From Bacillota bacterium (GTDB lineage: Bacteria > Bacillota_E > JAJZYS01 > JAJYTV01), in contig JAJZVM010000036.1 in the NCBI GenBank assembly GCA_021845645.1, positions 1 through 33,307 of the forward strand: a stretch of 33,307 nucleotides of DNA. Direction: 5' to 3'. The first letter of the stretch is position 1; each line of letters begins with the position of its first letter. The notes beneath the pieces are model-generated. The model was not told the origin of the DNA. It was given only the letters and a program-made list of their open reading frames with translations, and did no database searches. This document shows positions 11,377-13,406 of the stretch, one piece after another. Made by a program: the position numbers and the translations under genes.

Positions 11377-11386
11377 GGGTGTGGAA

Positions 11387-11544
11387 CGTCTGTTAGGTGA
11401 GGCTACCCGCGAGAGATAGGCTCTTGCCCGGAAACATCGAGAGATGCCCACGGGTGAAACAGTCCCGGTCGAAGCAAGGCCGGAACCAGAGAGCTGGAGC
11501 GCAAGCTCCTATGCCGTGAGGTGCTGAAGCTCAACGAGAAGACG
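11387..11544 (+). promoter_or_regulatory. M-box (ykoK leader) Mg2+ riboswitch
   Basis: The leader carries the conserved M-box sequence elements in order: GTTAGGTGAGGCT at the 5' side, then GCCCGGAAACATCGAGAGATGCC with the following GGGTGAAACAG core, a CCGGTCGAAGCAAGGCCGG hairpin region, and GGTGCTGAAGCTCAACGAG at the 3' side. P1 can form between CGTCT (11387-11391) and AGACG (11540-11544). The segment GACGCC (11541-11546) can alternatively pair with GGGCGT (11557-11562), which is the left arm of the terminator, so ligand-stabilised P1 would free the terminator. This is the usual Mg2+-off arrangement of M-boxes, which control Mg2+ transporters. Identification is by recognition of the conserved core, not by a covariance search. 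Confidence 0.92.
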
Positions 11545-11553
11545 CCACTCTTT

Positions 11554-11583
11554 TCTGGGCGTGTTCTCACGCCCAGATTTTTT
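11554..11583 (+). terminator. Riboswitch expression-platform terminator
   Basis: A perfect 10-bp stem (11554-11563 with 11568-11577, loop TTCT) is followed by six T residues (11578-11583). It lies ten bases after the M-box 3' strand, and its left arm overlaps the putative antiterminator, as expected for a transcription-attenuating riboswitch. Confidence 0.92.
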
Positions 11584-11727
11584 GTACCGAAAGGGGGGAT
11601 CAGGCCGTGGCCGCAGACGATCATAGTAGACCCAGACTTCGGGATGGCGAACGGGAATACGGACGGGCGGCGACCGCGGCCTGTCCTGGGCTGCGCGCCC
11701 TCTGACGGCGCTTGCCCCTCTTCCCTG

Positions 11728-11773
11728 CACGCCTCCCGACACGTGCCGGCAACCGGCTCTGAAGGGAGGCGTG
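11728..11773 (+). promoter_or_regulatory. Hairpin sequestering the ribosome-binding site of the Nramp-like gene
   Basis: CACGCCTCCC (11728-11737) is an exact 10-base reverse complement of GGGAGGCGTG (11764-11773), which contains the Shine-Dalgarno GGGAGG of the gene starting at 11778. The 26-base loop holds its own hairpin, GCCGG-CAA-CCGGC. Folded, the structure would bury the ribosome-binding site, adding translational control about 150 bases downstream of the transcriptional M-box switch. No known ligand-binding motif was recognised in the 11584-11727 leader. Confidence 0.65.
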
Positions 11774-11777
11774 ACGC

Positions 11778-13133
11778 ATGTCGTCGGCCAAGATGGAAAA
11801 GGAGATCCGGGAGTTGCCGCGGGAAGTGCGTCAACGCGCCGAGGACCGGCTGCAACTGCAGTACGCGCGTCAGCGCGGCGGGCTCTGGGCGCGGCTCCGT
11901 CTCCTCCTGCTGCTGATCGGCCCCGGTATCCTCGTCATGATCGCCGACAACGACGCCGGCGGAGTCATCACCTACGCCCAGACCGGTGCCAGCTATGGTC
12001 TCGGCTTCTTCATCCCGTTCCTCGTCCTGATGATCCCGGTCGCCTTCGTCGTGCAGGAGATGACGGTGCGGCTCGGCGCGGTGACGCGGCGCGGGCACGC
12101 GGAACTCATCTTCATGCGTTACGGCCGCTTCTGGGGCACCTTCTCCGCCATCGACCTCGTGATCGCGAACGCCCTCACGCTGGTCACGGAATTCATCGGC
12201 ATCGCGGCGGGTCTTGCCATCTTCCAGGTGCCCATCGTTCTTTCGGTGCTGCTCGGCCTGGCCGCCGTCTGGGCGGTCACCCTGATCGGCCGCTACCGCG
12301 TGTGGGAGCGCATCTCCCTCTGGGTGGCCCTCCTGAACGTCGTCTTCGTGCCGCTGGCGCTCGCCGCCCACCCGGACTTCGCCGCCGTGGCCCGCAGCTT
12401 CCTCACGTGGCACATCCCCGGCGGCGCCTCGGGGCCGTTCCTGATGCTTCTGCTGGCCAACCTTGGCACCACGATCGCGCCCTGGATGCTCTTCTTCCAG
12501 CAGTCCGCGGTCGTCGACAAGGGTCTGACGCCGCGCGACGTTCGCTTCGGGCGGATGGACACCCTGATCGGGAGCGTCGTGATGGGCATCGTGGCGATCG
12601 CCCTCGTCATCCTGGCCGCGACCGTGCTGCACGCGGCACCTGGCTCATCCGGCCTCGACATCCATTTCATCCTGCACTCGGTCGGCCAGCGCGTGGGCCG
12701 CTGGGCGGAGTCGCTCTTCGCCTTGGGCTTGATCGAATCCGGACTCATCGCCGCCATGGCGATCACCGCCAGCACGTCCTGGGCCGCCGGCGAGGCGCTC
12801 GGCCTCAAGGTGCGCAGCCTGAACGCGGGCGTCCGCCAGGCCCTGCCCTTCTACCTGCCCGGGCTGATCGCCGTGACGCTCGCCGCCTCGGTGGTGCTGA
12901 TCCCCGGGGCGCCGCTCGGATACCTCAACGTCCTCGTGCAGGTGCTGGCGACCGTGTTCATGCCGGCCGCGCTGCTCTTCCTTCTGCTTCTCGTCAACGA
13001 CCGCGAAGTGATGGGGCACCACGTCAACACCCGCCTGCAGAACGTCGCGGCCATCGGCATCGTCGCCATGCTGGTCGTCATGAACGGGCTCTACGGCACG
13101 TCGGTCGTGCTACCCTCGCTATTCCCGCACTGA
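11778..13133 (+). CDS. Nramp-family divalent cation transporter, probably Mg2+ (NRMT-like)
   Basis: A 451-residue membrane protein of the Nramp (SLC11) family with about eleven helices after a charged 40-residue N-terminus. The family landmarks align: GPGILVMIADNDAGG in helix 1, VVQEMTVRLGAVTRRGHAELI in helix 3 and GTTIAPWMLFFQQSAVVDKG in helix 6. In Mn2+/Fe2+ transporters helix 1 carries DPGN and helix 6 carries MPH. Here they read DAGG (59-62) and APW (234-236), so the Met that favours transition metals, the Asn and the His are all gone while the Asp is kept. This pattern, with the M-box Mg2+ riboswitch upstream, fits the Nramp-related magnesium transporters described from gut actinobacteria and firmicutes. 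Its ribosome-binding site AAGGGAGG lies in a hairpin. It would commonly be named manganese transporter MntH, which the residues do not support. Confidence 0.9.
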   Translation: MSSAKMEKEIRELPREVRQRAEDRLQLQYARQRGGLWARLRLLLLLIGPGILVMIADNDAGGVITYAQTGASYGLGFFIPFLVLMIPVAFVVQEMTVRLGAVTRRGHAELIFMRYGRFWGTFSAIDLVIANALTLVTEFIGIAAGLAIFQVPIVLSVLLGLAAVWAVTLIGRYRVWERISLWVALLNVVFVPLALAAHPDFAAVARSFLTWHIPGGASGPFLMLLLANLGTTIAPWMLFFQQSAVVDKGLTPRDVRFGRMDTLIGSVVMGIVAIALVILAATVLHAAPGSSGLDIHFILHSVGQRVGRWAESLFALGLIESGLIAAMAITASTSWAAGEALGLKVRSLNAGVRQALPFYLPGLIAVTLAASVVLIPGAPLGYLNVLVQVLATVFMPAALLFLLLLVNDREVMGHHVNTRLQNVAAIGIVAMLVVMNGLYGTSVVLPSLFPH

Positions 13134-13157
13134 TCCGAACGAAAGGGGCGGATGATC

Positions 13158-13352
13158 ATGGCCCGCACGCTGACCTACGACAACGAGGCCATCTGGAACG
13201 TCGTCCGCGAGGAGTCTCTCCTGCAGGAGCCGCCCGTGTACCACCGCGTCGAGGTGCGTGGACCCGTTGCGGTCGTCTGGTGGGGGCTTCGCATCTACGT
13301 CATCCTGATGGCCGCACTGATCGTGGCCGGGTTCCTGCACGGCCTGCGCTGA
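13158..13352 (+). CDS. Small single-pass membrane protein downstream of the Nramp-like transporter
   Basis: A 64-residue protein: a charged, soluble N-terminal part of about 43 residues (LTYDNEAIWNVVREESLLQEPPVYHRVEV) followed by one transmembrane helix near the C-terminus (VVWWGLRIYVILMAALIVAGFL). AAAGGGG lies nine bases before ATG 13158, the preferred start; ATG 13152 would be only three bases away. It begins 25 bases after the transporter stop and is followed by a strong terminator, so it should be the last gene of the riboswitch-controlled transcript. No family was recognised. An accessory or regulatory partner of the transporter, like other small proteins that bind Mg2+ transporters, is inference from context. 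Confidence 0.7.
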   Translation: MARTLTYDNEAIWNVVREESLLQEPPVYHRVEVRGPVAVVWWGLRIYVILMAALIVAGFLHGLR

Positions 13353-13368: not shown

Positions 13369-13406
13369 ATCGAGGCGGCGGGATCCCCCGCCGCCTCGAT
13401 ATTTTG
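13369..13406 (+). terminator. Intrinsic terminator ending the Nramp-like transcript
   Basis: A perfect 14-bp GC-rich stem (13369-13382 with 13387-13400, 4-base loop) is followed by ATTTTGT. It ends the plus-strand unit and sits between convergent genes; no T-run follows on the minus strand. Confidence 0.88.

Follow-up and report, generated by a model that had tools for sequence, protein, structure and literature searches.

A Mg2+-riboswitch locus encoding an Nramp-related transporter of an acidophile branch and a candidate small membrane partner

Which metal does an Nramp-family transporter carry when its gene lies behind a Mg2+ riboswitch, and what is the very small gene that follows it? Both questions are raised by a 33,307-nucleotide (nt) stretch of DNA from a Bacillota bacterium (GenBank assembly GCA_021845645.1, contig JAJZVM010000036.1; hereafter, the window), in which an initial annotation had proposed that a gene usually annotated as mntH instead encodes a Mg2+ transporter of the NRMT class. 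We consider it probable that the locus is a Mg2+-repressed two-gene operon, which would encode an NRMT importing Mg2+ and a dedicated small membrane partner. The pairing of M-boxes with NRMT genes and Mg2+ transport by such proteins are already known (PMC4072509, PMC8806188; here and below, papers are cited from parts of their text). New here are the acidophile branch of NRMTs and, above all, its tiny partner gene. The open-access literature searched contained no report of this branch or of its tiny partner and no example of an accessory subunit of an Nramp/SLC11-family transporter, and in the portions examined Nramp-family carriers are treated as single polypeptides. The argument rests on the following features of the window:

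11382..11549, + strand: M-box (ykoK leader) Mg2+ riboswitch aptamer, matching RF00380 over the full model (1-169)
11536..11568, + strand: antiterminator, in which 11536-11546 pairs with 11558-11568, excluding both the aptamer closing helix and the terminator
11554..11583, + strand: intrinsic terminator of the riboswitch, a 10-bp stem (11554-11577) followed by a U run
11778..13133, + strand: NRMT-type Nramp-related transporter of 451 amino acids (aa), assigned by PF01566, EleNRMT as best PDB match, trees and site columns
13152..13352, + strand: unannotated 66-aa single-helix membrane protein with invariant R47, Y49 and M53, candidate NRMT partner subunit

Riboswitch and transporter

A recognisable M-box with terminator and antiterminator had been claimed upstream of the gene, and all three elements were recovered. 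The covariance model RF00380 matched 11382-11549(+) over its full length with 113.9 bits, well above its gathering score of 44 (E = 5.9e-25; cmscan). This was the sole Rfam match above gathering score across the window, and one M-box only was found in the source organism's genome assembly (76.7% complete). On that assembly the window maps to -3054 to 30252 of a contig of 19,652 bases (G000:C53), which therefore covers part of the window only. The proposed start at 11387 falls five bases inside the aptamer. The aptamer is followed by an OFF-type expression platform, an architecture reported for M-boxes (PMC4072509), in which terminator and antiterminator are mutually exclusive. The antiterminator has 10 of its 11 positions paired, and its 5' arm is the 3' strand of the aptamer closing helix. 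According to RNAfold, the terminator alone folds with -18.8 kcal/mol; the stretch 11526-11571, in which the terminator is still incomplete, adopts the antiterminator fold (-17.4 kcal/mol), and the complete platform 11526-11583 prefers the terminator fold (-21.3 kcal/mol), so that any antiterminator would need to arise while the RNA is still being transcribed. Inspection by eye recognises the two helices also in 6 close relatives (L003, L004, L006-L009). The aptamer and platform together predict the response of the leader: at high cellular Mg2+ the aptamer would close, leaving its 3' closing strand unavailable for the antiterminator, and transcription would stop at 11554-11583, whereas low Mg2+ would allow read-through into the operon.

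The transporter matches PF01566 with 223.6 bits, and its AlphaFold2 (AF2) model, with a predicted local distance difference test score (pLDDT) of 89.7, has the Nramp (LeuT-type) fold. As had been described, DAGG (D59AGG62) and APW (within T231TIAPW236) stand in place of DPGN and MPH, forming a DxxG and TxxA site in helices 1 and 6; the protein also carries E138, has W236 and Q241 at the proton-path His positions, and bears two branch-specific acids, D126 and E320. The accompanying claim that the Met and the Asn/His ligands were lost agrees with the DAGG/TTIAPW site but not as regards His, which is a residue of the proton-release path rather than a metal ligand (PMC8806188). The NCBIfam MntH model scores the protein below its cut-off (114 bits vs 430) and the broad Nramp model NF037982 above it (65.6 vs 50). 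The best PDB match, by sequence and by Foldseek, is EleNRMT (7qji/7qia; 30-31% identity), which scores 180 bits compared with 63-71 bits for MntH chains; VIA Z gave no separation of EleNRMT from MntH. EleNRMT of Eggerthella lenta (Ramanadane et al. 2022, PMC8806188; PDB 7qia) shares DAGG/TTIAPW and the helix-3 Glu, and in both proteins Trp replaces the first proton-path His. It differs in that it was characterised as a single protein, has Ala at 126 and 320, and belongs to another branch of the tree.

Phylogenetic placement was assessed in two trees, one of 133 and one of 153 Nramp-family proteins, inferred by a quick method with long branches flagged; L056, a gene split by a stop, was left out of both, and L137, which duplicates L160, was removed. 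In both trees every DPGN protein lies outside the group that the window transporter forms with EleNRMT and the M-box NRMTs of clostridial type. Support for the NRMT clade in the Shimodaira-Hasegawa-like approximate likelihood ratio test (SH-aLRT) is 100 (103 rows, 133-protein tree) and 99 (111 rows, 153-protein tree); the 111-row clade also contains the long row L205, and both clades contain Met-keeping groups. The groups joining the acidophile branch are DAGS/AVIMPW, in which Met is kept, NAIAPW and DAPS/ATITPW. The window protein is thus an NRMT by site and by placement, and the two independent signals that had been set against MntH, the M-box and the family placement, both hold. The NrmT proteins Ca_c0685 and Ca_c3329 of Clostridium acetobutylicum likewise have an M-box upstream and belong to the NRMT class, and Mg2+ transport has been reported for them (Shin et al. 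2014, PMC4072509); in the trees, their branch was represented instead by EleNRMT and by M-box NRMTs of clostridial type.

The 80 closest loci, the best 80 of 531 loci related to the window transporter, include Sulfobacillus, Alicyclobacillus, Acidithiobacillus, Acidiphilium, Thermoplasmata, Micrarchaeota and Marsarchaeota; the named genera are acidophilic. All 80 encode the DAGG and TT(I/V)APW site (L056 being read in two pieces), with identities of 76-99% among close kin and 55-63% among the others. This spread over bacteria and archaea points to passage of the acidophile-branch NRMT between domains. An M-box lies upstream in 27 of the 80 loci, namely in 27 of the 28 labelled Bacillota, Bacilli, Actinomycetes or their genera (the exception, L005, is cut at a contig end) and in none of the other 52, of which 14 are labelled only 'bacterium' and one, L014, has just 17 nt upstream. 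Thus, M-box control seems to have stayed with Gram-positives while the transporter travelled.

A small gene linked to the acidophile branch

The 66-codon gene at 13152-13352, absent from the initial annotation, starts 18 nt after the NRMT stop. Its ratio of nonsynonymous to synonymous substitution rates (dN/dS) is 0.06-0.21 (9 pairs), so that it is very likely translated and under constraint. AF2 predicts one confident long helix (residues 38-65). The window protein has no Pfam or NCBIfam match; when 70 members of the small-protein family (alignment A1, 70 of 81 proteins) were scanned singly, the best scores were those of SMIM5_18_22 (0.0023, 7 members) and OppB (0.0037, 4 members), which we read as chance because they are the best among 70 scans, and a PDB search gave no convincing match (best 0.75). 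A profile search of 5.8 billion proteins returned 159 matches; among the 120 listed, the names were 'hypothetical protein' save one unrelated name. Fusion to the transporter was looked for only in the longest of these 120, P0083 (507 aa), whose extra N-terminal length is unlike the partner.

A homologue of the small gene lies directly downstream of the transporter gene, on the same strand, in 80/80 of the closest loci, bacterial and archaeal, with a median gap of 18 nt (range -4 to 220). In an all-against-all comparison of flanking open reading frames (ORFs), the small-gene cluster spanned 76 of the 80 loci and the next clusters 18, 16 and 11; the listed members of the latter are ORFs on the minus strand that overlap the M-box, a paralogue, the end of the NRMT gene or the small gene. 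Across the 50 genomes of these loci, 79 of 80 small-gene copies have a PF01566 gene upstream of them, in the same orientation and within 1 kb, the Nramp-family genes being the matches listed there. Among 299 genomes sampled from the phylum of the window, the small gene is found in two, the source genome and G158, where an M-box lies 1.6 kb upstream of it on the same contig; M-boxes occur in 104 of the 299.

When 150 Nramp-family genes were tested, 62 had a partner gene beside them. The test, like the 153-protein tree, includes 35 of the 80 closest loci; tallies by type were summed from individual rows, and the downstream stretches of L213 (62 nt), L122 (241) and L159 (539 and 738) are short. 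No partner adjoined any of the 35 DPGN (MntH-type) genes, the 13 of the characterised NRMT branch, the 22 of the DAGS/DVGS group and its Met-keeping kin, or the 6 of GPGT/GTGT type. Only the negatives of this test are independent, since the small proteins that the partner profile found had also served to build it. The sister DAPS/ATITPW transporter branch carries a diverged small partner. The small gene is thus constrained and linked to the NRMT branch. Distances of NRMT and partner correlate with r = 0.87 (79 loci), which was not used as proof because shared ancestry alone gives such a correlation.

Substrate, role of the partner and alternatives

Inference favours Mg2+ as the substrate of the window NRMT, on the grounds of the M-box, of the metal site, and of a separate DPGN MntH-type gene that is present in all 6 close relatives whose whole genomes were searched (G299-G304); in the source genome, an incomplete assembly, a single PF01566 gene was found. 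The initial annotation had taken the pairing of M-box and NRMT as support for Mg2+, and both signals stand; the type of evidence is not new, as NrmT was itself named, in 2014, on the ground of an M-box with an Nramp-related gene (PMC4072509). In this Bacillota lineage from an acidophile setting, the two genes would be co-transcribed. The first would yield an importer of Mg2+, and maybe of Mn2+ too, working through the enlarged DxxG/TxxA site and probably without proton coupling. The second, we propose, encodes a dedicated NRMT subunit, a tiny one-helix membrane protein that would bind transporters of the acidophile branch and most likely stabilise, tune or seal them at very low outside pH.

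The clearest candidate for a point of contact is the invariant arginine of the small protein. In its motif W-x-L-R-x-Y-x-x-x-M, the R, Y and M are invariant in 106/106 partner proteins of both kinds. Arg47 is probably placed against D126 in helix 3 and/or E320 in a later helix. Position 126, in predicted membrane helix 3, is D in 79/79 readable rows of the closest loci, and position 320, also in a predicted membrane helix, is E (66) or D (14) in 80/80; in the sister DAPS/ATITPW branch, D126 and E/D320 are each found in 24/24. Elsewhere, D or E at 126 occurs in 1/36 DPGN proteins and in 0/14 of the characterised branch, 0/21 DAGS-type and 0/9 NAIAPW-type proteins, and at 320 in 0/36, 0/14 and 0/21 of the first three, with D in 6/9 of the NAIAPW type.

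Small membrane proteins that modulate a transporter are known from the pairs MgtS/MgtA and AcrZ/AcrB, and the candidate partner would act likewise, as a short membrane protein on a transporter. No sequence relation to MgtS was seen (the NCBIfam MgtS model matched 1 of 70 members at E = 0.74, that is, by chance). The clostridial NrmT group is mostly accompanied by a gene for an MgtE N-terminal domain (PMC4072509), whereas the neighbour here is the 66-aa membrane protein; no such MgtE-domain partner lies beside the gene, and no member of the MgtE family PF01769 was found in the 11 genomes checked (the source and 10 others), PF03448 not having been searched genome-wide. In a further-reaching version, which we hold only tentatively, the small protein would be an obligate Nramp/SLC11 subunit, born with the acidophile NRMT branch and passed between bacteria and archaea as a two-gene unit. 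Its R47-D126/E320 pairing would keep the proton-uncoupled Mg2+ path stable or proton-tight across a pH gradient of several units, and the sister DAPS/ATITPW transporters, with another metal site, would have kept the same partner system.

Several observations weigh against this account of an NRMT with a dedicated partner. The 106 partner proteins were gathered by similarity search, which favours a conserved motif. The D126/E320 pattern follows the tree and so provides a hypothesis for contact, not independent evidence of it; L249, of the sister branch, has both acids and no adjoining small gene, though its genome has two copies elsewhere, and L211 has D126 with N320 and likewise no small gene adjoining. 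The AF2 model of the 66-aa protein has a pLDDT of 70.3 and a predicted TM-score of 0.36. One small-gene copy (L241, minus strand, 1453-1620) is an orphan lacking an adjoining Nramp-family gene, and none of 9 NAIAPW-type genes in the 150-gene test has a partner, a group whose position among the partner-bearing branches is unresolved. In both trees the window transporter falls not inside the EleNRMT/clostridial branch but in a sister branch drawn from acidophiles, and the Met-keeping DAGS/AVIMPW group falls on its side (SH-aLRT 99). As to the ion, EleNRMT moves Mn2+ too (PMC8806188), and an NrmT lacking an M-box, that of Acidobacterium capsulatum, is reported to transport mainly Mn2+ (PMC4072509), so that much of the case for the substrate rests with the M-box. 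Finally, CorA-like genes occur in 9 of the 11 genomes, including that of the source; the NRMT as the only route of Mg2+ uptake is thus unsupported.

Some of these points feed the best-surviving alternative, to which we give a limited chance: the acidophile branch may differ in function, importing Mn2+ or Fe2+ or being proton-coupled through D126/E320, with the M-box reporting general divalent balance. The branch is sister to the tested NRMTs and adjacent to a Met-keeping group, 52 of the 80 loci have no M-box, the M-box-less NrmT rescued Mn2+ transport (PMC4072509), and Nramp-type genes of Acidithiobacillus have been proposed as Fur-controlled importers of Fe2+/Mn2+ (PMC2631029). Yet 27 of the 28 Gram-positive loci are under an M-box and the metal site is the same in all 80. 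A search for Fur boxes in the upstream regions of 17 selected loci revealed nothing convincing: the best score, 13/19, was obtained in L033, L059 and L017, and that of L033 was reached in 7/200 mononucleotide shuffles. Fur control of the Acidithiobacillus members is accordingly not adopted here; the gene meant in PMC2631029 may be a different one.

It appears unlikely that the locus is an ordinary M-box/NRMT operon whose small gene is a co-inherited neighbour with a job of its own, for instance as a general acid-stress membrane peptide. Operon transfer alone can hold two genes together, an orphan copy exists, and EleNRMT was purified and studied in proteoliposomes on its own (PMC8806188). Against this, the other 79 copies adjoin an Nramp-family gene in bacteria and archaea alike, wide retention is seen for no other neighbour, each of the two sister transporter branches has a diverged small protein of its own, and a fully conserved Arg in a membrane helix would normally need a partner. 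A canonical MntH manganese transporter lying behind the M-box by chance, for which the matches to the Pfam and broad NCBIfam Nramp models speak, is rejected as highly improbable by the absence of a DPGN/MPH site, the MntH-model score and the position outside all DPGN sequences in both trees.

If the small protein is indeed a dedicated partner, its retention with one branch in 80/80 close loci of bacteria and archaea makes it a candidate Nramp subunit, and it would offer a direct test of Mg2+ uptake by acidophiles through such a carrier without proton leak. The small gene together with D126/E320 could also serve as a gene-context marker by which proteins annotated generically as 'NRAMP family' could be sorted according to function.

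Further features and relatives

The remaining features of the locus are a hairpin behind the second gene and a doubtful frame in the leader:

13369..13400, + strand: terminator-like hairpin after the second gene (14 bp, 11 GC)
11607..11705, + strand: possible leader ORF of 32 codons with a GTG start after AAGGGGGG; coding status doubtful

The transporter has as neighbours a phosphomannomutase-type gene, the 66-aa ORF and a LysR-type gene. The leader ORF follows directly after the riboswitch terminator and has a strong ribosome-binding site. It is open in 7/7 leaders compared (the window included), with dN/dS of 0.43-0.96 (8 pairs); as frame and ribosome site are kept but the peptide is weakly constrained, we do not regard it as a conserved peptide. 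A small ORF likewise follows an M-box in Mycobacterium tuberculosis, rv1805A (PMC12810186). The present locus differs in its intrinsic-terminator platform and weakly constrained leader ORF, the candidate partner being a different, downstream gene.

Among the relatives, the group with DAGS or DVGS and AV(I/V)MPW (L149-L151, L206, L207, L209, L212-L219, L222) keeps Met, has its His replaced by Trp and its Asn by Ser, and falls between the NRMT branches. The 50 genomes searched have 1 to 7 Nramp-family matches each, among the matches listed; of the paralogues (L223-L262), those with DAPS/ATITPW mostly have a diverged small partner, and none was detected for those with DAGG/NAIAPW. The split NRMT copy L056 belongs to Acidithiobacillus ferrivorans, and its small partner gene remains. 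CorA-like domains of the source genome (G000:C27:14190-14840) and of 5 close relatives (G299-G301, G303, G304) lie in unusually long frames (561-696 aa), possibly fused to another domain.
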